From assembly GCA_947447975.1 (NCBI GenBank), contig CANFLU010000002.1:1-64000 (forward strand): a stretch of 64,000 nt of DNA. Reading direction: 5' to 3'. Position 1 is the stretch's first letter, and each line of letters opens with the position of its first letter. Below, piece by piece: positions 44,722-59,390 of this stretch. Source of the DNA: Comamonadaceae bacterium (lineage in GTDB: Bacteria > Pseudomonadota > Gammaproteobacteria > Burkholderiales > Burkholderiaceae_C). The notes beneath the pieces were generated by a model. The model was not told the DNA's origin and did not search any database. It saw nothing but the letters and a program-made list of their open reading frames with translations. The position numbers and the translations under genes are program-made.

Positions 44722-45426
44722 ATGAAAGAGGACATAAGCAAGGCCTTCACCGGCCAATGGCCGGTGCCCATGGGGCGGCACCGCTTTGCCGGCGCGGCCG
44801 ATATCAACCCGGTGCTCTCGCGCGTTTTTGCCAGTATGCGCGCCACCGATGTAGCCCTGCACCCGGAGCGCGCTGGTGCGTTTTATGCCAGCGAGGATGA
44901 TTTGCTCAACCGGGTGGACGTGCCCGAGTTCCGCGCCTTGGTGCAGTTCATCGTGCAGTCCTTGCAGGACACCGCACAACGCGCCAACGCCCAGGTCTGG
45001 CCACCGGGCCAGCAACCGCTGCAATTGCTGCTGAGCGGCGTATGGTTTCAGATCCAAAACGGCGCCGCTTTTCATGATGTGCACACCCACGGTAATTGCT
45101 CTTGGTCTGGCGTGTATTACCTGCAAATCGACCCACCGGAACAACGCGCCAAGCACGCGCAGTGGGGCGCGCACAACGGCGTGACGCGCTTTTACAGCCC
45201 CATGTTCCCGCTGTTGGGCGGTGCGCACATGGACATGGGCAATGCCTTCATGCAAAACGCCACGCTAGACATCAGCCCGCAAGAAGGCGAGCTGATACTT
45301 TTCCCTGCATTTCTGCCGCACAAAGCCATGCCCTATCAGGGCGAGCGCGAGCGCATCATCCTATCCTTCAACGCGCAAATCCACGCGCCACAAGGCAATC
45401 AGATTTACCGCTACACGGGGACTTGA
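44722..45426 (+). CDS. Putative 2OG-Fe(II) oxygenase (TIGR02466-like) at the end of the cox operon
   Basis: A 234-residue protein with a C-terminal double-stranded beta-helix resembling the TIGR02466 group of putative 2-oxoglutarate/Fe(II) oxygenases. Candidate iron and 2OG ligands are in FHDVHTHGNCSWSGVYYLQ (His/Asp) and LILFPAFLPHKAMPYQGER with RIILSFN (His, Arg). It begins 31 bases after mocA in the same direction and ends the cox run, before the convergent alcohol dehydrogenase gene. ATG 44722 is preferred because the open frame upstream lies inside mocA. Substrate is unknown; it may simply be a passenger. Confidence 0.7.
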   Translation: MKEDISKAFTGQWPVPMGRHRFAGAADINPVLSRVFASMRATDVALHPERAGAFYASEDDLLNRVDVPEFRALVQFIVQSLQDTAQRANAQVWPPGQQPLQLLLSGVWFQIQNGAAFHDVHTHGNCSWSGVYYLQIDPPEQRAKHAQWGAHNGVTRFYSPMFPLLGGAHMDMGNAFMQNATLDISPQEGELILFPAFLPHKAMPYQGERERIILSFNAQIHAPQGNQIYRYTGT

Positions 45427-45559
45427 TGCGGGCGGCGCGATCGCGCTGCTTCTTTCGCTTTCACTCCAAATTTTCGGTCTTTGCGCGCCACCCTAAAGCG
45501 CGCCATACCGCATCGCAGGGCCGTGGTGCGCCACCGCTATTCCTGCCTGACTTCGCAGC

Positions 45560-46702
45560 TCACATCGAAGCGTCAAGCAGGGCGTGGTAATCGTCGCTGC
45601 TGGCCAAGCGTGGATTCATCTTGTGGCAATGGTCGGCCAGTGCGCCTTCGATCACCCGGGCAAAGTCGCCGCTGCCCACGCCCATGGCGCCCAGGCCTGT
45701 GGGCAAGCCCAAACGCGCATTCATCTCGCGCACGGCCTCGGCCACGTCGCCAGCGCTGCCACCCTTCAGGCCCATGGCCTGGGCCATGCGGGACAGACGG
45801 TTTTCTCTCTGCACATTCTCGGCATCGGCGTTGAAGCGGATCACCGCTGGCAGGAACATCGCGTTGAGCGTGCCATGGTGCAGACGCGGGTTGACGCCGC
45901 CCAGGCTGTGGCTGAGCGAATGCACGCAGCCCAAGCCTTTTTGAAAGGCCATCGCCCCTTGCATAGAGGCACTCATCATATTCAGGCGGGCCTCGCGGTC
46001 CGTGCCGTCGCGGGTGGCCCGCTCGATATGGGCCCAAGCGCGCTGCAAGCCGTCGAGCGCAATGCCATCGGCCGGCGGGTTAAACGGCGCAGCCATAAAG
46101 GTTTCCATGCAGTGGGCAATGGCGTCCATGCCGGTGGCTGCGGTCAGGCCGGCGGGCAGGCCCAGCGTGAGTTCGGGGTCGCATATCGCCGACTTGGGCA
46201 CGATGTGCCAGGAATGAAAGCCCAGCTTGCGGCCGTCGTCGATGATGAGGATGGCGCCACGCGCCACCTCGCTGCCGGTACCGGCGGTGGTGGGTACCGC
46301 GATCAGCGGCACCGCGAGCTCGGTGATCTTGGGCGAACCGCCTTCGATGGTGGCATAGGTTTTCAGCGGGCCCTCATGGGTGGCGGCAATAGCCACACCT
46401 TTGGCGCAGTCGATGGCCGAGCCGCCGCCCAGGGCGATTAGCCCGTCGCAGGTACCGGCCCGGTAGGCCTGCACTGCTGCGCGCACCGCGGCCTCAGTCG
46501 GGTTGGAAGGGGTTTGGTCAAACACCGAGACCGGCCAGCTGGGCAGGGCGGCCAGTGCGCGTTCGAGGATGCCTGCCGCCTTGACACCTGCGTCGGTGAC
46601 GATCAGCGGCCGGCTGATACCCAAGCGCTGGCACTCGGCCGGCAGGCTGCGCAGGGCGCCAAAGTCAATTTGAATCTGCGTGATGTAGTGGATCAAGGCC
46701 AA
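45560..46702 (-). CDS. Iron-containing alcohol dehydrogenase
   Basis: A 380-residue group III (Fe-dependent) alcohol dehydrogenase. The NAD-binding motif is ALGGGSAIDCAKG. Metal ligands are in TGMDAIAHCME, CVHSLSHSLGG and LHHGTLNA, and VPTTAGTGSEVARGAI is the family signature. The start is a TTG at 46702 preceded by AAAGGAG at seven bases, an excellent ribosome binding site. It may reduce aldehydes or oxidise an alcohol; maleylacetate-reductase-like activity is a more distant option. It stands between the cox locus and the LysR-amidase island, convergent with the former. Confidence 0.9.
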   Translation of the reverse strand: MALIHYITQIQIDFGALRSLPAECQRLGISRPLIVTDAGVKAAGILERALAALPSWPVSVFDQTPSNPTEAAVRAAVQAYRAGTCDGLIALGGGSAIDCAKGVAIAATHEGPLKTYATIEGGSPKITELAVPLIAVPTTAGTGSEVARGAILIIDDGRKLGFHSWHIVPKSAICDPELTLGLPAGLTAATGMDAIAHCMETFMAAPFNPPADGIALDGLQRAWAHIERATRDGTDREARLNMMSASMQGAMAFQKGLGCVHSLSHSLGGVNPRLHHGTLNAMFLPAVIRFNADAENVQRENRLSRMAQAMGLKGGSAGDVAEAVREMNARLGLPTGLGAMGVGSGDFARVIEGALADHCHKMNPRLASSDDYHALLDASM

Positions 46703-46932
46703 GGCAAGCTCCTTTAAGCAATGCCTGCATTCTCAGGCAAAAGCCGTGGCGTAGCGCACTTGTACCAGCCGCGCCATAGGGCAAGCGTCTGCGCCAATTC
46801 GCGCACCGCGGGCCCAGGCTATACGCCCTACATCAAGCGTAGATTCCCGCGGGGCAGTGATGCTGTTTATGAGCGGCTAAGCGTGGAGCGTGGCTTGCGC
46901 TCCAGACACCGTAAAGGTGCATGCGCTTGCGC

Positions 46933-47904
46933 TCAGGCGTTTTTACTAAAGTCAAACAGCCCATTGCTGCGCTCAGCGGTCACTATCGCAAAGCCCTTAG
47001 GGCCCAAGCTTAGAAAATACTGGCGCAGCATCTGCGTCAGTATTTTGACGAACTGTGGTTTGGAGGAACCGTAGATATCTGCCACCACTAAGTGGGGCGC
47101 CGGAACCGCATCGGTCAGCGGCCGTCTGACCAAATGCGAAGCATCAGCCATGGCGTGTCCCGTAGGACGCATATTGAGAATGGACACCCCAAAACCAGCG
47201 GCCACCGCCGAGCGTACAGTCTCATAAGAACGCGTAGTCAGACTGATTTTCGGGCGGTCACCCAGCACCTCAAATAGTGTCATCAAGTAAGTGGAAGTTT
47301 GCGGTAAATCCAGCAACACCAAGGGGTACTTGGCTAAGTCCGCAATGGAAATTTGCGGCTGTTGTGCCAGGGGGTTGTCAGCAGGCAAGATCGCATGGGG
47401 AGGCACTTTGCAAATAGCCGTATAGGTATCGCCTCCAAAGCTGGTGCCTATGTTGTAAGTGATGACCATATCTACGGCACCCGTGTTTAACCAATCATGC
47501 AATTGATTTTGGTCACCTTCGAGCAATTGGATGCCCATGAGGCCAACAGCATCTGCGTACTCCTTTAGTAATTCAGCAAGAAATAAGGAGCCGAAGGGCT
47601 GAAAGCATCCAACGCGAATGGTCTGCGGTGAGCCTTTGGACAAGCCGTTGACCATCCGGCCAAACTCCAGGTTGGCTTCTAACAAAACGCGTGCAGCAAG
47701 CACAAAGCGCTCTCCAGCAGGCGTAATTTGCACGCCACGTGCAGGTCGTCGATCAAAGATAGTGGCATTGAGCTCATCCTCGGCCAAGGTGATCGCTGCC
47801 AGCACAGAAGACTGGGAAATATGCAGGCTTGTACAGGCAGCTCGGATGCTGCCGAGCTTGGCAACCTCGCATACGTAACGAATTTGTCGGAGTGATAGAT
47901 TCAA
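46933..47904 (-). CDS. LysR-family regulator divergent from amidase operon
   Basis: A 323-residue LysR-type regulator. Its N-terminal helix-turn-helix region reads LRQIRYVCEVAKLGSIRAAC then LHISQSSVLAAITLAEDEL, followed by LFDRR-like IFDRRPARGVQITPAGERF and a periplasmic-binding-protein-like effector domain (IRVGCFQPFGSLFLAELL). The start is TTG at 47904; no upstream ATG fits. It is transcribed away from the amidase gene across 123 AT-rich bases, the standard layout for a LysR regulator of the adjacent catabolic operon. The effector is probably the substrate or an intermediate of that pathway. Confidence 0.9.
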   Translation of the reverse strand: MNLSLRQIRYVCEVAKLGSIRAACTSLHISQSSVLAAITLAEDELNATIFDRRPARGVQITPAGERFVLAARVLLEANLEFGRMVNGLSKGSPQTIRVGCFQPFGSLFLAELLKEYADAVGLMGIQLLEGDQNQLHDWLNTGAVDMVITYNIGTSFGGDTYTAICKVPPHAILPADNPLAQQPQISIADLAKYPLVLLDLPQTSTYLMTLFEVLGDRPKISLTTRSYETVRSAVAAGFGVSILNMRPTGHAMADASHLVRRPLTDAVPAPHLVVADIYGSSKPQFVKILTQMLRQYFLSLGPKGFAIVTAERSNGLFDFSKNA

Positions 47905-48027
47905 TTTTATTAATTATTTATACAATAAATATACTTATTTGTACTACACAATGCATTTTACACATCAATAAAGTTGCTGCAACATTCAGTAAAGAGGAAT
48001 AAAACCTCAAGAACCAGAGACATCACC
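47905..48027. promoter_or_regulatory. AT-rich divergent promoter region with LysR operator candidate
   Basis: The 123 bases between the LysR gene and the amidase are strikingly AT-rich compared with everything around. At 47921-47943 an interrupted palindrome TACAA-N13-TTGTA is seen. Its inner part AATAAATA/TACTTATT is itself complementary with one mismatch. It contains T-N11-A spacings as in LysR boxes and sits 17 bases from the regulator start. Sigma-70 boxes are not clear. Confidence 0.6.
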
Positions 48028-49458
48028 ATGAGCCTCAAATTGGGTCAAGCCCCCCTATCTAGCGCGCCTGAGCTTTGCAAAATGGGCACGGTCGAATTGG
48101 CGCAACAGTTCCGCTCGGGCGCTCTTTCGCCGGTTGAGGTGACGCAATCGGTTTTGCAACAAGCACAAGATGTGCAGACGCACTTCAATGCCTTTACCTT
48201 AATCGACCATCAAGGCGCATTAGATTTGGCTCGGGCATCAGAGAAGCGGTGGCGCCAGGGTGCCCCTTTGTCGCCCATTGATGGCGTATCCACCACGATC
48301 AAGGATTTGGTCTGGCTTAAAGGCAAAAGCATTCGTTATGGCAGCCTGACCTCGGCGCCAGACCCTTGCGCAGAGGACGCACCCTGCGTGACCAATCTGC
48401 GCGCTAATGGCGCGGTTTTTATCGGGGTCACCACCTCCCCCGAAATGGGGTGGAAAGCGGTGACCGACAGCAAAGCCTTTGGTATCACCCGTAACCCCTG
48501 GGATCCGGAGATGACGGCTGGAGGGTCATCCGGTGGGGCGGCCGTGGCGGCCGCCACCGGCGCGGGTGTGTTGCATGTAGGAACGGATGGTGGAGGCTCG
48601 ATCCGTATCCCTGCGTCTTTTTGTGGCATCGTTGGACACAAACCGACTTTCGGTACCGTGCCTGCTTTTCCTGCCAGTGCATTCGGCACGGTTGCGCATG
48701 TGGGTCCTATGGCAAGAAACGTAGCGGATGTGGCCGCCATGTTGAGCGCCATGTCAGGTCGCGATCTACGCGATTGGACACAGGGTTGGAATACCGTCAT
48801 CGATTTTGATTTAAAGCACGTTCAGCTAGCCCAGCTACGCATTGGATATTGGTCTAGACCGCCCGGAGGCGACGTGGACCCTGATGTGTCCCGCGCCATC
48901 GCTTTGGCACTGGATCACCTGCGGGCCGCGGGAGCCAGCATAAAAGCGGCTTCATTACCCGAAGAGGACCTGCATGCGGTATTCCAGGCGCATTGGTTTG
49001 CGGGTGCCGCTAACCGCCTAAGCCCTATTGCGTCAGCGCATTACCCCGACATGGATGAGGGACTGGTGCATGTCGCACAAATTGGCGCGCGTATGTCGGC
49101 CCCGCAATTGGTCGCTCACCAGGTCCGCAGAGCCAACTTCGGTGCCGCCATGGACCGCCTGCTATCTCAATTTGATGTGCTGATTTCACCTGCCGTGTCG
49201 GTGTTGCCGTTTCAGGCAGGTTTGGAGGTTCCTGGCGGCAGTGGTTTACAGCGATGGACCGAGTGGGCTGGGTTTAGTTACCCCTTGAACCTCAGTCAAC
49301 AACCCGCTTGTGTCATCCCTTGCGGGCGCAAGCGGCTCCATTCAGGGAGCACTTTACCCATCGGCATGCAAATTGTTGGCGCGCGCGGCGCTGACGCCCA
49401 TGTTCTGTCTATCGCTCAAGCTATTGAGCGTATGGACTTGGAACACATTCTTGTTTGA
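48028..49458 (+). CDS. Amidase, amidase-signature family
   Basis: A 476-residue amidase-signature hydrolase, cytosolic, converting an amide to an acid plus ammonia or an amine. The Ser-cisSer-Lys triad is visible: Lys92 in TTIKDLVW, Ser167 in TAGGSSGGAAVA, and nucleophile Ser191 in GTDGGGSIRIPASFCGIVGHKP. ATG 48028 is chosen; the open frame extends to 47974 inside the operator region. It opens the plus-strand operon that continues with the ABC importer, suggesting that the imported compound is an amide. A close functional relative cannot be named from the sequence. Confidence 0.9.
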   Translation: MSLKLGQAPLSSAPELCKMGTVELAQQFRSGALSPVEVTQSVLQQAQDVQTHFNAFTLIDHQGALDLARASEKRWRQGAPLSPIDGVSTTIKDLVWLKGKSIRYGSLTSAPDPCAEDAPCVTNLRANGAVFIGVTTSPEMGWKAVTDSKAFGITRNPWDPEMTAGGSSGGAAVAAATGAGVLHVGTDGGGSIRIPASFCGIVGHKPTFGTVPAFPASAFGTVAHVGPMARNVADVAAMLSAMSGRDLRDWTQGWNTVIDFDLKHVQLAQLRIGYWSRPPGGDVDPDVSRAIALALDHLRAAGASIKAASLPEEDLHAVFQAHWFAGAANRLSPIASAHYPDMDEGLVHVAQIGARMSAPQLVAHQVRRANFGAAMDRLLSQFDVLISPAVSVLPFQAGLEVPGGSGLQRWTEWAGFSYPLNLSQQPACVIPCGRKRLHSGSTLPIGMQIVGARGADAHVLSIAQAIERMDLEHILV

Positions 49459-49480
49459 TCAATCAATTTAAGGAGACAAC

Positions 49481-50779
49481 ATGGTCAATAGACGATCGGT
49501 ATTGGGTTCAACACTCGCGGCAGGCGCGGCGGGTGCGGGCCTGCTGTCCAGCCTCAACCAGTCCGCGCACGCCGCAGACAGCAAGACCATCACGGTGGGA
49601 TCTGCGCTGCCTATGTCGGGTTTCGCTGCCGCCGATGGCATTGAATTTAAACGCGGCCTCGAAATGGCCGCGGAAGAGATCAATGCAGCGGGGGGCTTAC
49701 TCGGGCAAATGCTCGAAATCAAAGTCGAGGACACCAAGGAAATGGGAGCCGATGTTGTGACCCAGGCAATGCAGCGGCTGATCGACCGGAACAAAGCACC
49801 GGTGATCATCAATGGCTACAACCTCGGGACCAATATGGTCGAAATGGATGTGGCTGCCGATAGCCATGTGATGTTCCTGCACTACAACACCGTGCTCTCC
49901 CACGACAATAAATTTAACAGCAAACCGGAGCGCTATTACAGTTGTTTTCAAGGCGATCCTGCTGAATATTGGTACGGCCAGGGCGTATTGAATTTTTTCA
50001 AGCAGTTAACGGATTCCAAACAGTGGACACCTGCAAATAAAAAACTCGCCATTATTGCGTCTGCTGATGAATACCCCATCACGATTGCCAATGCCATCAA
50101 GGCCAAGGCGGCTGAATATGGTTGGGAAATCAGCTTGTTTGAAACGGTGCCATTTCCGACGACGCAATGGGGGCCGACGCTGGCCAAGCTTCGCCAAAAC
50201 CCGCCCGCCGCGATTGCGATCACCCACTTTTTGCCGCAAGACTTGGCACAATTCATGTTGCAATTCTCGCGGCAGCCGACCAAGAGTTTGGTCTATATGC
50301 AATACGGCCCTTCGCTGCCCCCTTTCCGCGAAATTGGCGGGTCATCGGTCAACGGTGTGATTTATTCGACTGTGGTTGGATGTTTACCCGATGCTTTTTC
50401 CGCCGCGTTTCGGGCCAACTACCGTAAGAAGTTTGGACCCAATGCAGCCTACCTGACAGGCTCCCAAACCTATGACGGATTGTGGCATTGGGCCTTATCC
50501 GCAGCCATTGCTGGAGGAGCGAGTGAGCCTGGAAATAAAAAAGGCATACAACGTGTCGCAGCCGCCATGCGCCGACTCATTTACCGTGGTGTCAACGGAA
50601 CTTGCCGATACAACCCCGCGGGACAGTCTGCGTACTGCTTTCCAACGCAAACCAATGATCCGTCACTGGGAATGCCGCACCAATTTCTGCAGCATCAAGA
50701 TTTCAAAGCCGATGCTAAGTTAATTGCACCGGCCTTGTACGCGTCCAATGCCTTTGTCATGCCACCATGGATGAAGTGA
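49481..50779 (+). CDS. Branched-chain-type ABC importer, substrate-binding protein
   Basis: A 432-residue periplasmic binding protein of the Leu/Ile/Val-amide-urea family (type I fold). A twin-arginine-type N-terminus RRSVLGSTLAAGAAGAGLL leads to cleavage near SAHA-ADSK. The mature protein starts ITVGSALPMSGFAAADGIEFKRGLEMAAEEINAAGG, the family hallmark. Then come INGYNLGTNM and GSQTYDGLWHWALSAAI. The relation to amide-binding AmiC/UrtA proteins is general. A strong AAGGAGA lies before the ATG. The next gene overlaps its end by 13 bases. Confidence 0.92.
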   Translation: MVNRRSVLGSTLAAGAAGAGLLSSLNQSAHAADSKTITVGSALPMSGFAAADGIEFKRGLEMAAEEINAAGGLLGQMLEIKVEDTKEMGADVVTQAMQRLIDRNKAPVIINGYNLGTNMVEMDVAADSHVMFLHYNTVLSHDNKFNSKPERYYSCFQGDPAEYWYGQGVLNFFKQLTDSKQWTPANKKLAIIASADEYPITIANAIKAKAAEYGWEISLFETVPFPTTQWGPTLAKLRQNPPAAIAITHFLPQDLAQFMLQFSRQPTKSLVYMQYGPSLPPFREIGGSSVNGVIYSTVVGCLPDAFSAAFRANYRKKFGPNAAYLTGSQTYDGLWHWALSAAIAGGASEPGNKKGIQRVAAAMRRLIYRGVNGTCRYNPAGQSAYCFPTQTNDPSLGMPHQFLQHQDFKADAKLIAPALYASNAFVMPPWMK

Positions 50780-51603
50780 GGCACGGTGTTGCGGCCACCT
50801 CGGGTCAGAAACCCGAGGTGGTTTTCAAATGTGAAGGCGTCTCCAAACACTTTGGCTCGCTGACGGCTGTGGACAATTTTTCGCTCGAGGTCGCGGCCGG
50901 CAGTGTGCTGGGTATCGGCGGCCCCAATGGGGCCGGTAAAACCACTTTTTTTGACGTCGTCACTGGCATCACTGCGGCTTCAGCGGGGCGGGTCTGGTTC
51001 GGCGGGCAAGACATCAGTGGCTTGAGCGCCGATCGTATTTGCCAAATGGGTATGGCCCGCACCTTCCAACTCAATGCCACCTTTGAGGGTATGAGCGTAC
51101 AAGAAAATGTTCAAGTGGCAGCTTGCTATGGGCGTTCAAGGAGAATCTTGCCCCCTTGGAAGCTAGACTTTGCAACAAAGGCAAGCGTCACGCAGGCACT
51201 GGAATTTGTTGGCCTGTCCCACAAGGCAAAGCACGCCGCCAGCAGCCTCACGGTTCTTGAACGCAAATTGCTGATGTTGGCCGGTGCCATCGCCACCGAG
51301 CCACGGGTGCTATTTTTGGATGAACCCGTTGGTGGTTTGGCTGCCGATGAGATTGATCAGATCATGGGACTGGTCAAACAAATACAAGCCACCGGCGTGA
51401 CCATTGTTTTGATCGAGCACGTGATGCGTTTTTTGCTTGAGCTGTCAGACAAAGTCATCATCATGCACCACGGCGGCAAGTTGTTTGAAGGTTTGCCACA
51501 CGATGTTGCCAAGGACCCGACGGTAGTCGATACCTACCTAGGCGAAGGCACGAGCCAGCGCCTCAATCAATTTTTCGAGAAGCGTCACCATGCGACAGCC
51601 TAA
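50767..51603 (+). CDS. ABC importer ATPase, LivG type
   Basis: A 278-residue ATPase with Walker A GGPNGAGKTT, the Liv-type ADRICQMGMARTFQ block, and Walker B VLFLDEPVGGLAADEI followed by IEHVMRFLLELSDKVIIMHHGGKL. The signature segment is LTVLERKLLMLA rather than LSGGQ, a variation seen in some LivG paralogues. It overlaps the binding-protein gene by 13 bases and livF-like by 14, so translation is coupled. It powers uptake together with the second ATPase. Confidence 0.92.
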   Translation: MDEVRHGVAATSGQKPEVVFKCEGVSKHFGSLTAVDNFSLEVAAGSVLGIGGPNGAGKTTFFDVVTGITAASAGRVWFGGQDISGLSADRICQMGMARTFQLNATFEGMSVQENVQVAACYGRSRRILPPWKLDFATKASVTQALEFVGLSHKAKHAASSLTVLERKLLMLAGAIATEPRVLFLDEPVGGLAADEIDQIMGLVKQIQATGVTIVLIEHVMRFLLELSDKVIIMHHGGKLFEGLPHDVAKDPTVVDTYLGEGTSQRLNQFFEKRHHATA

Positions 51604-52318
51604 GCCAGCGGCCGCCTTGGTACTGGATGGTGTCACAGCCGGATATGGCGGCCTCACCATTCTTCGCGATATCTCTTTGCGTTTGCTCCCCGGTCACATG
51701 GTGACTGTGGTCGGCCCCAATGGCCACGGCAAATCAACGTTGCTCAAAACCATCTCGGGCATGACGCAGCAAAGCAGTGGGCGCATTTGGATCGGTGAGC
51801 ATGAAATCACCAGCTTGCCCGCACACGCCATTGCAGGCCTGGGCGTGGCCCACATTCCGCAAGGCGACTTGCTCTTTCCTGAAATGACGGTCGAGGAAAA
51901 CTTGTTGATGGGCGCGTATTTGACCACTGAACAAGCACAAATTGAACAGCGCTTTGATGAGGTCTATCGCCTCTTCCCGAAATTGGCGGGTCGGCGCGAT
52001 CAAACTGCTTCGACCCTTTCGGGCGGCGAGCGGCGCATGGTGGGCATAGGGCGCGGCCTGATGATGGGCACACAACTGTTACTCATTGACGAACCATCTT
52101 TGGGCTTGGCACCGCTGGTCATTGATCAAATTTACGAAGCCATAGGCGCACTCAAAGCTTCAGGGCGCAGTATTTTGCTGGTGGAGGAAAACCCGGCGCG
52201 GGTTGCTGAGCTTGCCAATGAAATGCATTTGCTCGATGACGGGCACATCATTTGGTCAGGACCTCCCGATGAACTTTTAAGGCGCGATGAATTGCTCGCG
52301 ACCTATTTGGGGGGGTAG
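51590..52318 (+). CDS. ABC importer ATPase, LivF type
   Basis: A 242-residue ATPase of the LivF class. Walker A is GPNGHGKST, with His in place of the usual Ala, a common variant. The signature is LSGGERRMVGIGRGLM, and Walker B is LLLIDEPSLGLAPLVIDQIYEAI. The C-terminal LVEENPARVAELANEMHLLDDGHI is as in LivF/UrtE. It partners the LivG-type ATPase and two permeases of this operon. Confidence 0.93.
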   Translation: MRQPKPAAALVLDGVTAGYGGLTILRDISLRLLPGHMVTVVGPNGHGKSTLLKTISGMTQQSSGRIWIGEHEITSLPAHAIAGLGVAHIPQGDLLFPEMTVEENLLMGAYLTTEQAQIEQRFDEVYRLFPKLAGRRDQTASTLSGGERRMVGIGRGLMMGTQLLLIDEPSLGLAPLVIDQIYEAIGALKASGRSILLVEENPARVAELANEMHLLDDGHIIWSGPPDELLRRDELLATYLGG

Positions 52319-52324
52319 CCAGAC

Positions 52325-53212
52325 ATGGTGGATATATTTTTCTCTATCGCGCTTTCGGGCCTGACCTCTGGTGCCCTATACGCGCTGGCCACCTTGGGTT
52401 TATCCTTGGTGTGGGGTTCGATGGGCATGCTCAACATGGCGCACGGGGCCATGTTGACGCTGGGCGGTTATGCGGCCTTTGCCGTAGTGATGCAGTGGGG
52501 TATGCCCGGTCCGCTGGGCTTTGTGGCGGCCCTGGGCGTTGGGGCCTTGGTCGGAGCACTTTTATATGTGCTTGTCGTCAGGCCCTTGCTGCGTGCAGAG
52601 GTGGCCAGCTTTGAAACTGCCGTGTTGATGGCCACGGTCGGTCTGGGGACCGCGCTGGAAAATGGCATCTTGCTGACCTTTGGCGGCCAACCTTTGTCCC
52701 AGCCGGTTAAATCCGATGGCATGCTGCAGATAGGGCAGCAAGGCGTGCCGTATCAAAGCATGGTGGTGATTGGGGTGGCTTTGATATTGATGGGCATAAC
52801 CGCCTATGTACTCAAACACACCCGTGCTGGGCGCGCCATCCGTGCGACGACACAAAACCGCGACGCGGCCCAGTTGCTTGGCATTCCGGTAGGACGTGTC
52901 TATCTGCAGGTACTGATGTTTTCTGGCGCATTGGCGGGCATTTGCGGTTGCTTGGTCAGCTCCATCACGCAGTTGTCGCCCTCTTTAGGGGCTGACCCCA
53001 TGCTCAAAGCTTTCATCATGTGTGTAGTTGCCGGTCTTGGGAATTTACCAGGGGCAGTGTTAGCGGCATTTGCACTGGCATTCATAGAAGCCATGGTTCA
53101 GTACGTATTTGGCGGACGCTGGGGCTTTCCGGTGCTGTTAACGCTGGTCATATTGGTCCTAGTTTGGCGTCCTACAGGCCTATTTGGTCGTGCGCAGATA
53201 CGCCGTTTGTAA
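52325..53212 (+). CDS. ABC importer permease, LivH type
   Basis: A 295-residue inner-membrane permease with about eight segments. Characteristic stretches are ALSGLTSGALYALATLGLSLVWG, MLNMAHGAMLTLGGYAAF, GRAIRATTQNRDAAQLLGIPV and GLGNLPGAVLAAFALAFIEA. It forms the channel with the LivM-type permease. It starts six bases after the LivF-type gene. Confidence 0.93.
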   Translation: MVDIFFSIALSGLTSGALYALATLGLSLVWGSMGMLNMAHGAMLTLGGYAAFAVVMQWGMPGPLGFVAALGVGALVGALLYVLVVRPLLRAEVASFETAVLMATVGLGTALENGILLTFGGQPLSQPVKSDGMLQIGQQGVPYQSMVVIGVALILMGITAYVLKHTRAGRAIRATTQNRDAAQLLGIPVGRVYLQVLMFSGALAGICGCLVSSITQLSPSLGADPMLKAFIMCVVAGLGNLPGAVLAAFALAFIEAMVQYVFGGRWGFPVLLTLVILVLVWRPTGLFGRAQIRRL

Positions 53213-53236
53213 TTGAGGCATGCCAAAAGAGCCACT

Positions 53237-54298
53237 ATGAAATCATCTATTCAACATAGTTCACCGCTGCAGATGAAGCTATCCGCGACGAGAAATACCG
53301 ATGTGTGGATTGCAGTCGGTTTGGCGTTTATCTTGGCGGTCTTACCGCTGATGATTGACAGCCGCTACATCATTGGACAAGTCATCTTGGCGATGTTTTA
53401 CGCCATCATCGCGACACAGTGGAACTTATTGTTTGGTTTTGCAGGCATTTTTTCACTGGCACAAATGGCGATTTTTGCACTCGGGGGCTACGCCACAGCC
53501 ATGCTGTGTAGCTACCTGGCCTGGCCCATGGCGCTGGCTATTGCAGCGGCAGCACTTGGCACCGCTTTTATCTCCGTTCTGATCGGTGTTGCCTGCTTGC
53601 GGCTTGCAGGGGTTTACGTCTCATTGTTGACACTCGCCATTGCACAGGCGATGCATGTCATGATCGTGTCGGATACGGAGTGCTTCACCATGGTGGCAAA
53701 CCAGTGCAGGCAGTTCACTGGCGGTGCAGTGGGTTTTGCTCGGTTTGGCGATTTAGGCATGCGTGAGCTATTGGGGGATCATTGGCTGTGGGGTAATTAC
53801 GCCATAGTGTTTGGACTATTTGCAGTGTGCAGTGGGTTTACCTACTTCATCATCCACAGTCCAATGGGTTTGGCCTTCAAAGCTTTGCGTGACAACCCGG
53901 GATATGCGATTGCCCGTGGCGTCAATCGTTTTCAATCGCAATTGCTGGTATTTGGCTTTTCGGCGTTTTTTACCGGACTGGCCGGTGGCATCTATGCCGC
54001 GCATTTCCAAGCGATTGGTCCCAGCATCCTTTCTTGGTCCCAGTTCAATTTCATCATTGCCATAACAGTCGTCGGTGGTACTGGCAATTTTTGGGGTCCG
54101 ATCGTGGGGACTCTGATCTTGATGTCCGCAGATGAGTTGATGCGCGAAATGGGCGAGTTCCGAACATTGGGTCTGGGACTCATCATTGCGGCTTCAGTGG
54201 TCTGGATGCCTCAAGGTTTATTGGGTCGATTGCGAGGTCTGCAGCAATGGTGGTTGCGGCGCGCGCATCCGCTGCAAACGCCTGTCAGACCCACTTGA
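53237..54298 (+). CDS. ABC importer permease, LivM type
   Basis: A 353-residue inner-membrane permease with about ten segments: QVILAMFYAIIATQWNLLFGFAGIFSLAQMA near the N-terminus, AFKALRDNPGYAIARGVNRF in the conserved cytoplasmic loop, and VVGGTGNFWGPIVGTLIL. ATG 53237 (MKSSIQHSSPLQ) is the first clear start; an upstream in-frame TTG at 53213 is less likely. The loop after segment five is somewhat longer than usual and has two Cys (DTECFTMVANQCRQF). It completes a five-gene importer. Confidence 0.92.
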   Translation: MKSSIQHSSPLQMKLSATRNTDVWIAVGLAFILAVLPLMIDSRYIIGQVILAMFYAIIATQWNLLFGFAGIFSLAQMAIFALGGYATAMLCSYLAWPMALAIAAAALGTAFISVLIGVACLRLAGVYVSLLTLAIAQAMHVMIVSDTECFTMVANQCRQFTGGAVGFARFGDLGMRELLGDHWLWGNYAIVFGLFAVCSGFTYFIIHSPMGLAFKALRDNPGYAIARGVNRFQSQLLVFGFSAFFTGLAGGIYAAHFQAIGPSILSWSQFNFIIAITVVGGTGNFWGPIVGTLILMSADELMREMGEFRTLGLGLIIAASVVWMPQGLLGRLRGLQQWWLRRAHPLQTPVRPT

Positions 54299-54340
54299 AC
54301 GCATTGAACGCAACTTTATTTTTTGACGAAGGAGGTCAGC

Positions 54341-55855
54341 ATGAGCATCGCTGTCAACGCAGCCCCAAAAACCAGCTTGGATTGGCACCAATGGGCGGAG
54401 CGCTTGCACTTAGAGGGTCGCCACTTTATCGATGGGCAATTTGTTCACGCGAAGGGAAGCGGCGTATTTCCCACGGTTAACCCGGCCAATCAGCAGATTT
54501 TGACGCAAGTTGCACGAGGCCAAAGCGCGGATGTAGATACCGCCGTCCAAGCCGCACGCGTGGCTTTTCAAAAGGGGGCCTGGTCGCGGATGGCACCGCG
54601 TGCGCGCATGGCGGTCATGCTCCGCTGGGCTGAGTTGATCGAGAAACACAGCGATGAGTTTGCCTTGCTCGATACCTTGGACATGGGCAAGCCCATTTCT
54701 GAAATGCTCCAAGTCGATATTCCCTTGGGCTTGCTGTGTCTGCGTTTTACCGCAGAGTGCATTGACAAATTGAGCGGCCGTGTCGGAGCCACGCCCAGCC
54801 ATGTTTTGAGCTATGTACTGCATCAACCCTTGGGGGTGGTGGCCTGTATCGTGCCCTGGAACTACCCTTTCCTGATGACCCTGTGGAAAATTGCCCCCGC
54901 CTTGGCTGCAGGCAATTCGGTGGTCTTGAAACCCGCAGAACAGGCGCCCTTGAGTGCCGCATTGCTGGCACGCTTGTTCGTCGAAGCGGGCGGGCCGCCG
55001 GGCGTCTTCAACGTGGTGCAAGGCTTGGGCGAAGAATGTGGGAAAGCCCTCGCATTGCACATGGATGTGGACAAAATCGCCTTCACCGGTTCGGGTGAAG
55101 TGGGCAAGCTCATGCAAATTTATGCAGGGCAATCGAACATGAAAAAGGTGACCACCGAATGCGGCGGTAAATCGCCGCATGTGGTCATGGCCGATGTCAA
55201 AGACTTAGATTTGGCAGCGACTTGGGCCGCTATGGGCGTGTTTGGCAATCAGGGCGAGGTGTGCTGTGCCGGTTCACGCCTGATCGTCGAGCGCGGCATC
55301 GAAAAAGAGTTCGTTGAAGCCCTGCGTCGCAAAGCCCATGCACTGCACCAGCCAGGGGACCCCTTGGACCCCCTTACCCAAATGGGCCCACTGGTGACCC
55401 GAGAACATCAGCAGCGCGTGCTGGGGTATATCGATATTGCCCGCAAAGAGGGTGCTCAGTGTGAGTTGGGTGGTGATGTACCGCAGGGCATGGAAGCGGG
55501 CGCGTATGTCAGCCCCACCATTTTCAGCCAAGTGAACAATTCGATGCGCGTAGCCCAAGAAGAAATTTTTGGTCCCGTCGCCTGTGTGATGGTGGCCGAT
55601 GATTTTGACGATGCCCTGCGCATTGCCAACAACAGCCGCTTTGGTTTGGCGGCCGGCATTTGGACACGCGATGTGGACAAAGCACTGCGCTTTGCGCGTG
55701 ATGTGGAGTGCGGCATGGTGTATGTCAACAGCTATATGGATGGTGACATGCAAATGCCCTTTGGCGGCTGGAAAGAGTCAGGCAATGGCCGCGACAAGTG
55801 CATGGAGGCCATCGTGTCCTACACCCAATCAAAAGGTGTTTGGATCACCTTGTAA
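54341..55855 (+). CDS. NAD(P)-dependent aldehyde dehydrogenase
   Basis: A 504-residue aldehyde dehydrogenase. The cofactor motif FTGSGEVGKLM, the general base Glu in TTECGGKSPHVV and the nucleophile Cys in GNQGEVCCAGSRL are intact, and EEIFGPVACVM and FGGWKESGNGRDKCMEAI close the fold. The overall pattern resembles gamma-glutamyl-gamma-aminobutyraldehyde (PuuC-like) and aminoaldehyde dehydrogenases, which oxidise aldehydes formed from amines. AAGGAGG six bases before ATG 54341 fixes the start. In the operon it would oxidise the aldehyde released by the aminotransferase. Confidence 0.92.
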   Translation: MSIAVNAAPKTSLDWHQWAERLHLEGRHFIDGQFVHAKGSGVFPTVNPANQQILTQVARGQSADVDTAVQAARVAFQKGAWSRMAPRARMAVMLRWAELIEKHSDEFALLDTLDMGKPISEMLQVDIPLGLLCLRFTAECIDKLSGRVGATPSHVLSYVLHQPLGVVACIVPWNYPFLMTLWKIAPALAAGNSVVLKPAEQAPLSAALLARLFVEAGGPPGVFNVVQGLGEECGKALALHMDVDKIAFTGSGEVGKLMQIYAGQSNMKKVTTECGGKSPHVVMADVKDLDLAATWAAMGVFGNQGEVCCAGSRLIVERGIEKEFVEALRRKAHALHQPGDPLDPLTQMGPLVTREHQQRVLGYIDIARKEGAQCELGGDVPQGMEAGAYVSPTIFSQVNNSMRVAQEEIFGPVACVMVADDFDDALRIANNSRFGLAAGIWTRDVDKALRFARDVECGMVYVNSYMDGDMQMPFGGWKESGNGRDKCMEAIVSYTQSKGVWITL

Positions 55856-55905
55856 AGCCGGGTCCACGGCTTGCCATCAGATATTAAAAAAGGGGAGATG
55901 AAACA

Positions 55906-57024
55906 ATGAAAACGGGTTATGTATTTCATGAGTACTACCTGTGGCACGACACAGGTACCGGTGCGCAAATGGTTCCGACGGGCGATTTTGTGGAACCGGG
56001 CCTGCACGTAGAGGCGCCGGGCACCAAGCGGCGCTTCAACAGTTTGGTGCACGTCAGCGGCCTTGCGCGGCAACTGCAGATGATCGAGCCCATCGCGGTC
56101 AGCACCGAGGATGTGCTGCGTGTACATACCCCGCGTTATCTCAAGCACATCCAAGACCTCAGCAAAATTGGCGGTATGGATGCGGGTCCATTCACACCTA
56201 TTGGGCGCGGGAGCTACGAAATTGCCCTGTTGTCTGCGGGGGGTACCTATCAAGCTTTCAACGCGGTGATGCAAGGCCAGGTGAAAAATTGTTATGCCTT
56301 GGTGCGTCCGCCGGGTCATCATGCCGAACCCGATGCGGCTTCTGGCTACTGCCTATTTGGCAACGCGCCCATCGCCATACGCCGCTTGCAAGCAGAGGGC
56401 AAAGTGGAGCGCGTGGCGGTGGTGGATTGGGATGTGCACCACGGCAATGGCACGCAAGCCATGTTTTATGAGGACCCATCCGTCCTGACCATCTCGGTGC
56501 ACCAAGACAATTTGTTTCCAGTCAACAGCGGCCCCATCACCGATACCGGGCGTGGCCCAGGGGATGGCTTCAACATCAACATCCCCTTGCCGCCCGGCAG
56601 TGGCACAGGCGCTTACGAGGCCACGTTTGACCGCGTCGTACTGCCCGCCTTGGACGCCTTCAAACCGGATCTGATCGTCGTGACCTCAGGATTTGATGCC
56701 TCAGGCTGGGACCCTATGGGCATGATGATGCTCAACAGCGGCTGCTACCGCCGCTTGGCGCAGCGCATGGTGGACGCCGCCAACCGTTTGTGTGGCGGAC
56801 GATTGGCCATGACCCACGAGGGCGGGTATTCGGAAGGCTACGTTCCCTTTTGCGGCTTGGCCGTTCTAGAGACGCTCTCGGGTATCCGCACCAGCGTGGT
56901 AGACCCTATGTCTGACCACATGGATTTATGGGGTGGGCAGGCATTGCAGCCACATCAAGACAGCCTGATCCGCAGCGCTGAAGAATTAGTTACCCATTTA
57001 AAGAAGCGTTTGAACGCACGCTGA
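55906..57024 (+). CDS. HDAC-family (class II-like) amidohydrolase
   Basis: A 372-residue zinc amidohydrolase similar to bacterial HDAH (class II histone-deacetylase-like amidohydrolase). Tandem His are in LVRPPGHHAEPDAASGYCLFGN (His138, His139), zinc ligands Asp176 and His178 in VDWDVHHGNGTQ and Asp264 in SGFDASGWDP, and catalytic Tyr308 in EGGYSEGYVPFCGLAV. The N-terminal GYVFHEYYLWHDTGTG is typical of the HDAH group. It would remove an acyl group from an amine. It follows the aldehyde dehydrogenase after 50 bases with a GGGGAGATG ribosome binding site. It differs clearly in sequence from the acetylpolyamine amidohydrolase at 8816-9850. Confidence 0.92.
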   Translation: MKTGYVFHEYYLWHDTGTGAQMVPTGDFVEPGLHVEAPGTKRRFNSLVHVSGLARQLQMIEPIAVSTEDVLRVHTPRYLKHIQDLSKIGGMDAGPFTPIGRGSYEIALLSAGGTYQAFNAVMQGQVKNCYALVRPPGHHAEPDAASGYCLFGNAPIAIRRLQAEGKVERVAVVDWDVHHGNGTQAMFYEDPSVLTISVHQDNLFPVNSGPITDTGRGPGDGFNINIPLPPGSGTGAYEATFDRVVLPALDAFKPDLIVVTSGFDASGWDPMGMMMLNSGCYRRLAQRMVDAANRLCGGRLAMTHEGGYSEGYVPFCGLAVLETLSGIRTSVVDPMSDHMDLWGGQALQPHQDSLIRSAEELVTHLKKRLNAR

Positions 57025-57053
57025 ATTGAGTTTTACTTGACGAGAGATTGAAA

Positions 57054-58433
57054 ATGAACACACGCGACATGCAACTTGAAGCACACCATGACACCCGTCA
57101 TATGCTCTACCCCTTTGCGAACCAAACCCACTTGGCCAAAAGCCCGCCCTTGGTGATTGAGAGAGGCGAAGGCGTTTATGTGTATGACCGAAATGGCAAG
57201 CGTTACCTCGATGGCCAAGGGGGTTTGTGGAATGTGAATGTTGGCCATGACCGCCCCGAGATCAAGGAGGCGATTCGCCAACAACTTGACCGCATCAGTT
57301 TTTACTCCATCTTTGGCGGCACCAGCAACCAACCCGCCATTGATTTGTCCCATGTGTTGTGCCGCTGGACAGCACAAGAAGGCATGGAGCGGGCTTTTTA
57401 TTCGTCGGGCGGTTCTGAGGCCAATGAGGCTGCTTTCAAACTGGCACGCCAATATTGGCGCCAGGTGGGGCAAGCCACGCGCCACAAAATCATTTCCTTA
57501 AAGCGCGCTTACCACGGGGTGACCTTAGGGGCCTTGTCGGCCAACGGGACACCGGCCTACCGCTCTCCTTACGAGCCCCTATTGGCTGGCTTTGTCCAGG
57601 TCGAAACGCCCTACACCTATCGAAACCCATTCACCAACGATCCTGAGGAATTGGGGCGACTGTGCGCCGCCTTGCTGGAGCGGGAAATTGAATACCAAGG
57701 CCCATCCTCTGTGGCGGCGTTTGTGGCTGAACCCGTACAGGGCGCGGGTGGCGTGATTGTCCCGCCGGCCAATTTTTGGCCGCTGGTTCGCGAGGTCTGT
57801 GATCGCCATGGTGTGCTGTTGATCTCTTACGAAGTGGTCACCGGTTTTGGCCGGATTGGCTCGGAAATGGGCTGTCGCCATTGGGGTGTGAAGCCCGACA
57901 TGATGGTGTTTGCCAAGGGCATCAACAGTGGCTATATCCCGCTGGGCGCGACCATGGCCAATGCCCGAATATGCGACGCCTTTGTGACCAAAGACGATGC
58001 CCAATTCAGCACCTCAGCGTTCTACCATGGCAACACCTACGCCGGCCATCCACTGGCCTGCGTGGCGGCCATTGCGAATTTGGAAATCACAGAAAAAGAA
58101 CAACTGCATCTGAATGCCAGAGAGGTGGGCACTTATTTCATTGACCGCCTCAAATCCATTCAAGACAAGCACCGCTATATGGGTGAGGTGCGCGGGCAGG
58201 GTTTGATGATCGCGATTGAATTGGTAGCGGACAAAAAGACCAAGGCGCCCCTTGATCTTTCGCTTAATGTGGGGGCCCGAATTTCCGACGAGTGCCGCAA
58301 GTCAGGCGTGTTGATTCGCAACCTGGCAGACACCTTCATCATTTCCCCGCCCTTGACATTTTCAAAGGCCAATGCCGACGAGATTGTCGAAGCGATTGAC
58401 AAAGCCATGGCGAAACTCGATGAAAAGAATTAG
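57054..58433 (+). CDS. Class III aminotransferase with Asp-to-Tyr change at the PLP site
   Basis: A 459-residue omega-amino acid/diamine:pyruvate-type aminotransferase. Features: GVYVYDRNGKRYLDGQGGLWNVNVGH, FYSSGGSEANEAAFKLARQY, AYHGVTLGALSANG, AEPVQGAGGVIVPP, the PLP lysine Lys288 in FAKGINSGYIPLGA, and YAGHPLACVAAIANLEI. The normally invariant Asp of the LxxDEVxTGFGR motif is Tyr259 here (LISYEVVTGFGRIG; codon TAC at 57828-57830). That Asp binds the PLP ring nitrogen, so activity may be altered. The rest of the gene is intact, with no frameshift. ATG 57054 with GAGAGA upstream is the start. It is the last gene of the operon. Confidence 0.9.
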   Translation: MNTRDMQLEAHHDTRHMLYPFANQTHLAKSPPLVIERGEGVYVYDRNGKRYLDGQGGLWNVNVGHDRPEIKEAIRQQLDRISFYSIFGGTSNQPAIDLSHVLCRWTAQEGMERAFYSSGGSEANEAAFKLARQYWRQVGQATRHKIISLKRAYHGVTLGALSANGTPAYRSPYEPLLAGFVQVETPYTYRNPFTNDPEELGRLCAALLEREIEYQGPSSVAAFVAEPVQGAGGVIVPPANFWPLVREVCDRHGVLLISYEVVTGFGRIGSEMGCRHWGVKPDMMVFAKGINSGYIPLGATMANARICDAFVTKDDAQFSTSAFYHGNTYAGHPLACVAAIANLEITEKEQLHLNAREVGTYFIDRLKSIQDKHRYMGEVRGQGLMIAIELVADKKTKAPLDLSLNVGARISDECRKSGVLIRNLADTFIISPPLTFSKANADEIVEAIDKAMAKLDEKN

Positions 58434-58604
58434 CGTTTCTGAATCCTCAGCAATGTGTGGCAGATGACAAAATTGCCAGACGCCGCTTGTACGATGACCG
58501 GGCTGCCAAAGAATTTAATCGACTTGGGGGTGACGAAGTCATTGCGCTTGTCACCCCTATTCGCTTAAGCTTTGCGCTCACCAAAATGCACCCTTGCTAA
58601 GTTC
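58434..58604 (+). terminator. Possible terminator hairpin after the amidase-aminotransferase operon
   Basis: Within this 171-base gap a perfect eight-base inverted repeat GGGGTGAC (58527-58534) and GTCACCCC (58550-58557) encloses a 15-base loop. It lies about 95 bases after the aminotransferase stop. The following bases (tattcgctt) contain only scattered T, so it is a weak or factor-aided terminator candidate. Nothing else is identified in the gap. Confidence 0.4.
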
Positions 58605-59009
58605 ATGGCGCTCTTGCTGCCGTTGTTGCTATTTGTCCTGATGCTGAACACGCAGCTGCCGGCCAGGGACTTTCCTCCAATCACCCGCATCGACGCCATC
58701 GCGGTGCAGTCGCAGGTGTTTGAAGCGACGTCGCCCAGGCGCCCGGTGCTTATCCGTTCGGCACAGGAGGCCGCTGATTATTTCCCAGTATCCGATCTCG
58801 CTCGCTTATGCAGCGAGGTTGACTTTTCTAGGCAAGTCGTGCTTTTGTTTGCTTGGCGAGGGTCGGGGCAGGACCGCTTGGAACCTGTGGAGGATGATTC
58901 ACCGCCCGGTGGGCTCGTATTTGTATTTAGCCCCGGCCGAACGCGCGACCTGGTGGCACACCACCAGGTGTTTGTCTTGCGCTCAGATGTGGCCTGGAGC
59001 ATCCGGTGA
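58605..59009 (+). CDS. Small exported protein with WRGSGQD motif, function unknown
   Basis: A 134-residue protein with a hydrophobic N-terminus (MALLLPLLLFVLMLN) that may be a signal peptide or anchor. The body holds VDFSRQVVLLFAWRGSGQDRLEP and FVFSPGRTRDLVAHHQVFVLRSDV. I recall related conserved stretches (FAWRGSGQD, GRTRDL) in uncharacterised proteins of planctomycete-like bacteria, and the core loosely resembles PrcB-type domains. This is from memory only. An in-frame TTG at 58572 is an alternative start. It is alone between two operons. Confidence 0.55.
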   Translation: MALLLPLLLFVLMLNTQLPARDFPPITRIDAIAVQSQVFEATSPRRPVLIRSAQEAADYFPVSDLARLCSEVDFSRQVVLLFAWRGSGQDRLEPVEDDSPPGGLVFVFSPGRTRDLVAHHQVFVLRSDVAWSIR

Positions 59010-59048
59010 GCAGGACCGAAGCCCTAAGCCCTTCGCGGTGCAGAGCGC

Positions 59049-59390
59049 TCAGTGAATGACAACTGGGTTTTGCGCCAGCCCAGCGTACTGCTCTAGGGTT
59101 TCCTCGACCTCTTCTTGGGTCGGCATATTGACCTGCCAGGCGACGATGTGCTGCTGAAACAACTCGGCCCAGGAGCCGTCCAGATAGACCTCTTTGCCCG
59201 AACGCTTGTCCACAATTTCAAAGCCATGGCGTGCCAGCATGGGTACGCCCTGCGGGTACTGTTCGGTTTTGACGTCGCTCAAGGTGGTATTGCCCTGGCC
59301 CAGGAAAGCGGCACTGTTCTCACTTTGCGCCTGTGCGTTGGCCAGCATATGGGTCACGGTAAAGCTGTCAGAGTCGTAAAGCGTGTTCAT
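59049..59390 (-). CDS. DUF3567 family protein
   Basis: A 113-residue acidic protein of the betaproteobacterial DUF3567 family: MNTLYDSDSFTVTHML at the N-terminus, ARHGFEIVDKRSGKEVYLDGSWAELFQQHI in the middle, and PTQEEVEETLEQYAGLAQNPVVIH at the end. The protein is cytosolic and its function is not known. The family is largely confined to Burkholderiales and so supports the taxonomic placement. Confidence 0.88.
   Translation of the reverse strand: MNTLYDSDSFTVTHMLANAQAQSENSAAFLGQGNTTLSDVKTEQYPQGVPMLARHGFEIVDKRSGKEVYLDGSWAELFQQHIVAWQVNMPTQEEVEETLEQYAGLAQNPVVIH

Follow-up and report, generated by a model that had tools for sequence, protein, structure and literature searches.

Which compound is taken up and degraded by a gene set that joins a complete ATP-binding cassette (ABC) importer to two amide hydrolases, an aldehyde dehydrogenase and an aminotransferase? 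The question is raised by an island of ten genes on contig CANFLU010000002.1 of a Comamonadaceae bacterium (Burkholderiales; assembly GCA_947447975.1), within the stretch of 64,000 nucleotides analysed here (positions 1 to 64,000 of the forward strand, hereafter the window). We find a real, acquired cassette for the import and breakdown of amides, of a conserved kind and in a new arrangement. As judged from its sequence, it probably imports and degrades a small organic amide under LysR control, the most likely substrate being a primary amine or an amino alcohol in N-acylated form. The literature, searched in open-licence papers only, yielded no account of the set, which is a weak negative.

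Gene content of the island

Ten reading frames are open over the coordinates listed below, nine of them co-directional (48028-58433) and the LysR gene divergent. Each encoded protein lies above a Pfam cut-off (LysR, Amidase, Peripla_BP_6, ABC_tran twice, BPD_transp_2 twice, Aldedh, Hist_deacetyl and Aminotran_3), so that the ten genes and family names given in the original prediction, which had been made from the letters of the window, all stand. Where the nine co-directional genes do not overlap, the gaps between them are no longer than 50 bases, a spacing that suits one operon. In the NCBIfam matches listed, the LysR protein, the binding protein, the importer subunits and the aldehyde dehydrogenase stay below the cut-off of every model, and none of the models matches the histone deacetylase (HDAC)-like protein.

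46933..47904, minus strand: LysR-type regulator, divergent (Pfam LysR_substrate and HTH_1 above cut-off)
47950..47962, plus strand: AATGCATTTTACA, conserved element in the LysR-amidase intergenic region, probably a LysR site or activator-dependent promoter element
48028..49458, plus strand: amidase-signature amidohydrolase, PRK06169 type (Pfam PF01425, 4e-85; NCBIfam PRK06169, 536.5 bits, cut-off 506)
49481..50779, plus strand: periplasmic binding protein (Pfam Peripla_BP_6; closest solved chain 3h5l, E 3e-127)
50767..51603, plus strand: importer ATPase 1, LivG/UrtD type (Pfam, NCBIfam)
51590..52318, plus strand: importer ATPase 2, LivF/UrtE type (Pfam, NCBIfam)
52325..53212, plus strand: importer permease 1, LivH/UrtB type (Pfam, NCBIfam)
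53213..54298, plus strand: importer permease 2, LivM/UrtC type (Pfam, NCBIfam)
54323..55855, plus strand: aldehyde dehydrogenase, PuuC/KauB-like (Pfam Aldedh; best NCBIfam model PuuC at 561 bits, under the cut-off of 850)
55906..57024, plus strand: class II HDAC-like zinc amidohydrolase (Pfam PF00850, 6e-83)
57048..58433, plus strand: class III aminotransferase, PRK07481 subfamily (NCBIfam PRK07481, 683.8 bits, cut-off 575)

A conserved importer-HDAC cassette

We define the cassette by a binding protein of the 3h5l type, its four ABC subunits and a class II HDAC gene no more than 10 kb away, a combination that the window has. Its relatives were sought by scanning 84,980 species genomes with a six-sequence alignment of the binding protein; 162 stretches encode a relative, and the best 80 of the 162 were kept. 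Eight plasmid loci (L002-L009, from 41 records) and 79 of these 80 make up the 87 loci examined, L030 being the same record as L002. Forty loci, whose binding protein shares 60% identity or more with that of the window, are called close here (38 of at least 12 kb), and 47 are more distant (41 of them long). The neighbourhood surveys used differing thresholds, so that counts differ slightly between them, and the open reading frame (ORF) caller missed some true genes, such as the HDAC gene of L156.

Among the 40 close loci, a GMC alcohol oxidoreductase gene is the usual partner (35), followed by HDAC-like (32), amidase (31) and LysR (28) genes, with an aldehyde dehydrogenase at 50% identity or more in nine and an aminotransferase at that level in six. 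The long close loci contain an HDAC gene in 32 of 38 cases and some amide hydrolase in all 38; for the more distant long loci the figures are 22 and 34 of 41. Around other Peripla_BP_6 proteins, 40 control stretches held no HDAC gene and six held any amide hydrolase, figures to be read with two limits that count against our reading: the controls were drawn from 21 of 60 phylum genomes and were not matched by taxon, and the queries for hydrolases other than HDAC came mostly from the examined loci, favouring matches there over the controls, which makes the HDAC figure sounder than that for any hydrolase. The earlier idea of a dedicated importer combined with C-N hydrolases and amine-aldehyde-acid chemistry is supported. 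The synteny check proposed with it came out in two parts: the association of importer, HDAC and amidase is conserved, against the independent shuffling that would have refuted the idea, and aminotransferase (6/40) and aldehyde dehydrogenase (9/40) are modular.

Gene order differs between loci. The commonest order, found mostly in rhizobia, is LysR-amidase-importer-GMC-(aldehyde dehydrogenase)-HDAC, as on plasmid p1 of Shinella sp. H4-D48 (MNR02_RS18110-18155, annotated gene by gene), where regulator, amidase, importer, aldehyde dehydrogenase and HDAC follow the order of the window at 54-71% identity and share an intergenic motif with it. Unlike the window, this plasmid lacks an aminotransferase gene and carries the GMC gene between those for permease and aldehyde dehydrogenase. 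No study of the Shinella-type cassette was found in the open-licence literature. The Bradyrhizobium order is aminotransferase-HDAC-importer-GMC (L012-L014, L020, L021); these loci resemble the window in aminotransferase (67-68%), HDAC (60-62%) and binding protein (69-70%), but have a TetR-type gene upstream and no LysR-linked amidase. A Deltaproteobacteria metagenome-assembled genome (MAG) has aminotransferase-HDAC-importer-alanine dehydrogenase, and the window ends in aldehyde dehydrogenase-HDAC-aminotransferase without GMC. Elsewhere in the Burkholderiales, four other genomes among 250 have a strong HDAC match (L156, L157, L158, L159), two of them with a PRK07481 aminotransferase nearby and one of these also with an aldehyde dehydrogenase. 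In L159 (8943-12871) the HDAC-aminotransferase pair adjoins a sulfatase and a peptide-type importer.

The importer and its binding protein

The importer is of the same type as the urea importer UrtABCDE, but its ATPases and permeases match UrtD, UrtE, UrtB and UrtC weakly, far below the urea cut-offs. The binding protein scores 32.1 bits against the UrtA model (cut-off 492.75; E 5e-8), lies far below both the urea and the Liv models of NCBIfam and belongs to the 3h5l family. Its N-terminus reads NRRSVLG, a twin-arginine-like motif which, judged by eye, would suggest export by the twin-arginine route. A Ser in the first ligand loop, which we take to touch the ligand in Peripla_BP_6 proteins, occurs in all 20 control proteins and is absent from the binding protein of the window and from eight relatives; since the controls include urea-type proteins, its loss marks an unusual pocket and not a particular ligand.

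FmdDEF, of the same importer type, imports short-chain amides. Other kin of the binding protein adjoin N,N-dimethylformamidase-type genes in six loci (one tested with Pfam), including, as annotated, the locus of Aminobacter niigataensis DMFA1, and further kin lie beside nitrile hydratase and amidase genes or beside hydantoinase genes. With such amide-hydrolase neighbours, the family reads as one of putative amide importers.

The HDAC-like enzyme

The set centres on the HDAC-like protein, which is related to the histone deacetylases of humans and is, by sequence, a predicted deacylase of the HDAH/propanil hydrolase type. Its best solved relatives are propanil hydrolase (PrpH), dimethoate hydrolase (DmhA) and HDAH (E 3e-98 to 6e-113; HDAH/PA3774 type), with which it shares the RPPGHH and EGGY motifs; DWDVHHGNGT and SGFDA are present as well, so that zinc ligands and the catalytic His/His/Tyr are in place, and 51-53 of the 54 homologues taken from the loci have the same residues. 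PrpH and DmhA belong to cluster 1b, diverged from lysine deacetylases, according to the available part of PMC11532494, in whose main text the term 'ABC transporter' is absent.

Acetylpolyamine catabolism had been the analogy first drawn for the island: the HDAC would deacetylate an acetylputrescine-like compound, the aminotransferase would yield 4-aminobutanal and the aldehyde dehydrogenase γ-aminobutyric acid. The PuuC/KauB-like aldehyde dehydrogenase agrees with this route, and so does plasmid pBVIE01 of Burkholderia vietnamiensis G4, on which a class II HDAC gene (54%) stands beside glutamine-synthetase, aldehyde dehydrogenase and class-I amidotransferase genes that presumably resemble the Puu route. 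The enzyme itself fits poorly. Kinship to bacterial acetylpolyamine amidohydrolases is not seen in its sequence: the amidohydrolase 6phr (E 2.7e-39) comes last in the best 60 of 137 matches, and where relatives mostly read DPLG the enzyme reads DPMG (position placed by eye), which is neither the Glu gatekeeper of the HDAC10 type nor the PIS motif of the bacterial acetylpolyamine type, as these are defined in the available part of PMC11532494. Deacylation before amine catabolism is also the logic of acetylpolyamine utilisation in Pseudomonas aeruginosa (PA0321, PA1409; PMC4784309, in the part available, as for all that is cited from it), whose enzymes belong to another HDAC group by sequence. 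PA3774, of the HDAH type, is reported not to deacetylate acetylpolyamines and to act on acetyl-lysine substrates, and the paper calls unknown both what HDAH acts on in nature and what PA3774 does (PMC4784309). Mildly favourable to the analogy is the low activity listed for HDAH, 0.18 nmol per mg per s on acetylcadaverine and 0.13 on acetylputrescine, versus 24.5 and 39.3 for PA1409 (PMC4784309). The GMC partner of most relatives would also be left without explanation. We consider the acetylputrescine analogy weakened and this route quite unlikely.

Could the HDAC-like gene instead encode a protein lysine deacetylase that lies in a transport operon by chance? The related KpHdaH and VsHdaH do deacetylate lysine peptides (PMC11532494, available part), as PA3774 acts on acetyl-lysine (PMC4784309). 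Chance is nonetheless a highly improbable account of an HDAC gene that accompanies the importer in several gene orders and in 32 of 38 long close loci, against none of 40 controls.

Class II HDAC genes occur in further settings. Besides the Shinella and Roseovarius loci, we read the neighbourhoods in 15 of 28 plasmid records with a match: a transport gene directly adjoins the HDAC gene in nine of the 15, monoamine or hpa genes lie nearby in three, a Puu-like set in one and a polyketide cluster in one. No transporter is listed in the HDAC neighbourhoods of Leisingera methylohalidivorans and Novosphingobium. On pBVIE01 (L093:9986-17980) the gene is accompanied by a symporter and the Puu-like genes, and on a Micromonospora plasmid (L095:7754-10125) it follows immediately on an annotated histidine decarboxylase gene. 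In Klebsiella aerogenes (L169:18363-26547), hdaH and a permease gene lie beside an annotated monoamine-regulon regulator, an arylsulfatase and MoaEF, which suggests an N-acyl monoamine as the substrate of that enzyme.

A narrower form of our reading takes the substrates to be N-acylated aryl-alkylamines of the tyramine, phenethylamine or tryptamine type, with the matching alcohols, all converted to an aryl-acetic acid, the amidase acting on an aryl-acetamide. Its appeal is that a single logic would cover amidase, HDAC, aminotransferase, GMC and aldehyde dehydrogenase; class II HDAC genes do stand beside the monoamine regulon of K. aerogenes (as annotated) and the hpa genes of Pantoea and Agrobacterium, and in Bacillus badius HDAC, aminotransferase and aldehyde dehydrogenase genes lie near a gene of the 4-hydroxyphenylacetate hydroxylase family. 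Yet the enzymes of Klebsiella, Pantoea and Agrobacterium belong to an HDAC clade separate from that of the window (100/100), together with importer-linked enzymes of Ruegeria, Variovorax and Martelella and with L157, so that the monoamine and hpa neighbours bear on the HDAC family and not on the subclade of the window. The aminotransferase of B. badius shares no more than 33% identity. In the own genome of the window (about 90% complete) no homogentisate dioxygenase domain was found, and there was one marginal PaaA_PaaC match (28.4, or 29.4 with neighbours; cut-off 28.5), a result that lends an aromatic substrate no support and is not decisive. We consider this narrower form unlikely.

Proposed oxidation of the amine or alcohol form

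Assignment of the last gene to an omega-aminotransferase holds as far as the score for class III PRK07481 goes, but an altered residue in a catalytic motif had been missed. The lysine that binds pyridoxal phosphate is present (FAKG); at the Asp position of the xDEV motif, usually, we presume, the Asp that faces the cofactor ring in aminotransferases, the window encodes Tyr (codon 57828-57830). The aminotransferase may therefore be impaired here, or misassembled: in a draft genome of 107 contigs, assembly error, decay and real change at this codon are not distinguishable. Its homologues (67-70%) stand beside HDAC and importer genes in six loci, five of Bradyrhizobium and the Deltaproteobacteria MAG. 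Recruitment of the same subfamily in different gene orders supports a shared function, and the alanine dehydrogenase gene that follows the importer in the MAG (471 bits, cut-off 392) fits an aminotransferase that forms alanine. All 141 plasmid records matching the aminotransferase lie below 60% identity (best listed 53%).

The other catalytic motifs checked are intact. The amidase has its Lys and Ser motifs, and the aldehyde dehydrogenase, closest to the chains 5iuu, 7jso and KauB 6b4r, has its catalytic Cys and Glu motifs; homologues of 64-71% occur in the nine close loci noted above. For the GMC protein of Shinella, the nearest solved relatives are choline dehydrogenase, alcohol oxidases and a chloramphenicol-inactivating oxidoreductase. 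The GMC protein, acting on an alcohol, and the aminotransferase, acting on an amine, would both yield an aldehyde and look like interchangeable modules. Since the window lacks GMC and has the aminotransferase found in six of the 40 close loci, one aldehyde is probably reached from both the alcohol and the amine.

Some further substrates were set aside. Caprolactam or nylon-type breakdown would use an aminotransferase and an aldehyde dehydrogenase, and the GMC protein does not fit it. Vitamin B6 breakdown, with a GMC pyridoxine oxidase and an aminotransferase, was an idea only. The same is true of pantothenate or panthenol breakdown, which would account for GMC and aldehyde dehydrogenase and for which the pantothenase gene is called unidentified (PMC10393543, available part).

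Evidence on the other side

Several further observations weigh against an import and breakdown cassette of the kind proposed. An HDAC gene is out of reach in six of the 38 long close loci, and no amide hydrolase was recognised in nine of the 47 more distant ones, two of the nine being stretches shorter than 12 kb. The exact set of the window (LysR, amidase, aldehyde dehydrogenase, HDAC and aminotransferase, without GMC) occurs in none of the 40 close loci. L156 and L158 have no aminotransferase partner near the HDAC gene, the L157 enzyme belongs to the other HDAC clade and that of L159 is weakly placed in the tree. The binding protein forms an early branch of its clade that the tree leaves unresolved. 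The HDAC of the window sits on a long branch outside both the Bradyrhizobium and the Shinella groups (a row flagged by the tool as long-branch), and its sister is a Pseudorhizobium enzyme linked to a peptide-type importer, a position that may mean that the cassette was assembled from parts and that substrates differ.

To these is added the altered aminotransferase, whose Asp is kept in all 14 aligned relatives (six close, eight at 27-36%). The island might be decaying, its aminotransferase already non-functional and the pathway incomplete in this genome, which would be compatible with our reading for the family. The absence of a GMC gene from the island and of the binding protein from all 99 other genus genomes points the same way. 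We nonetheless find decay doubtful: the ten frames are open, the other checked catalytic motifs are intact, and the change concerns a single residue in a draft assembly, where an error is possible.

Regulation

LysR homologues in relatives are 41-58% identical, and 28 of the 40 close loci have the gene. Aligned LysR-amidase intergenic regions (18 of 27 available, the window and 26 others; the nine left out are mostly from genera already present) contain AATRCATTTT in 14 of 18 cases, the window included, and a relaxed form in all 18. The motif lies 39-57 bases from the LysR start (80 in one), and single-base shuffles gave a mean fraction of 0.0003. AATRCATTTTRYR has one match in the whole window, with 0.07 expected. 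The rhizobial sequences share ancestry, so that the motif count overstates independence. The element at 47950-47962 is a probable candidate for a LysR site or an activator-dependent promoter element. A perfect inverted repeat in the same region (TATTTAT-ACA-ATAAATA) was set aside, as it is not common to relatives.

Horizontal acquisition

The island lies in a longer segment that sister genomes lack:

45430..59045, no strand: inserted segment relative to sister genomes, ends approximate (flank homology breaks)
45560-46702, minus strand: Fe-alcohol dehydrogenase, genus-typical, inside the inserted segment
58572-59009, plus strand: orphan ORF of 145 aa at the right edge of the insert

In three sister genomes (L129, L130, L131) both flanks lie on one contig. 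Homology on the left stops at window positions 45422-45439 and that on the right starts again at 59040-59049; the two are 649, 1137 and 24 bases apart, respectively, versus 13.6 kb in the window. In a fourth, L135, with the left flank only, homology reaches position 45501. The genes flanking the island are kept in the sister genomes. It is because of this synteny, the empty site, that genome comparison establishes the island as a horizontally acquired insertion into a Burkholderiales genome. The binding protein was found in one of 300 order, one of 299 family and one of 100 genus genomes (overlapping sets; E limits 1e-60, 1e-80 and 1e-60; at most five candidates scored per genome for order and family), each time the window's own genome. 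Both results confirm the acquisition proposed at the outset. The lower GC content then noted is apparent relative to the immediate flanks (0.54-0.58 in 2-kb windows, versus 0.60-0.63 directly outside); GC below 0.60 also occurs at 1-6 kb and 18-21 kb of the window, which makes composition by itself a weak sign.

The Fe-alcohol dehydrogenase gene lies within the inserted segment and is not at this site in the three sister genomes. Homologues of 73-79% occur in 17 of 20 other genus genomes, and it was rejected as a member of the island; we take it as a native gene moved into the segment. The orphan ORF has no Pfam or PHROGs match and an N-terminus that looks signal-like by eye. There are no long flanking repeats at the insert ends and no tRNA in the window, and Pfam detected no transposase or integrase domain in the ten genes and six neighbouring proteins, the other small ORFs lying outside that scan.

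Proposed pathway and significance

From this evidence we infer the class of substrate, the order of steps, their convergence and the regulation as follows; the mechanism class of the cassette is likely. The ABC importer would take up the amide, and the HDAC-like zinc enzyme would cut its C-N bond, with the serine amidase doing so for part of the substrate range. The class III aminotransferase would oxidatively deaminate the freed primary amine, probably with pyruvate as acceptor, and the aldehyde dehydrogenase would convert the aldehyde to the acid. In most close relatives, the source of the aldehyde would instead be an alcohol oxidised by the GMC oxidoreductase, so that alcohol and amine forms of one carbon skeleton may meet at one aldehyde. 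A substrate with two amide bonds, as first suggested, is possible and not needed by the data. Regulator and probable operator would have been acquired along with the cassette when it was transferred into this genome.

A bolder and more tentative proposal, to which we give somewhat less than even credence, is that the class II HDAC-like enzymes linked to importers serve solely in catabolism, as deacylases of a natural N-acyl amine or amino alcohol that is common in soil and rhizosphere and lacks a known degradation pathway, its amine and alcohol forms being handled by interchangeable aminotransferase and GMC modules feeding one aldehyde. Relatives of the cassette occur in many soil bacteria, and given the recurrent link between HDAC and importer, the ligand of the binding protein would give a direct route to the natural substrate of the enzyme. 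What the window contributes is a variant for handling amines that reached a Burkholderiales lineage by transfer. If the proposal is true, an orphan family of bacterial class II HDACs would have its physiological role in small-molecule catabolism and not in protein deacetylation.

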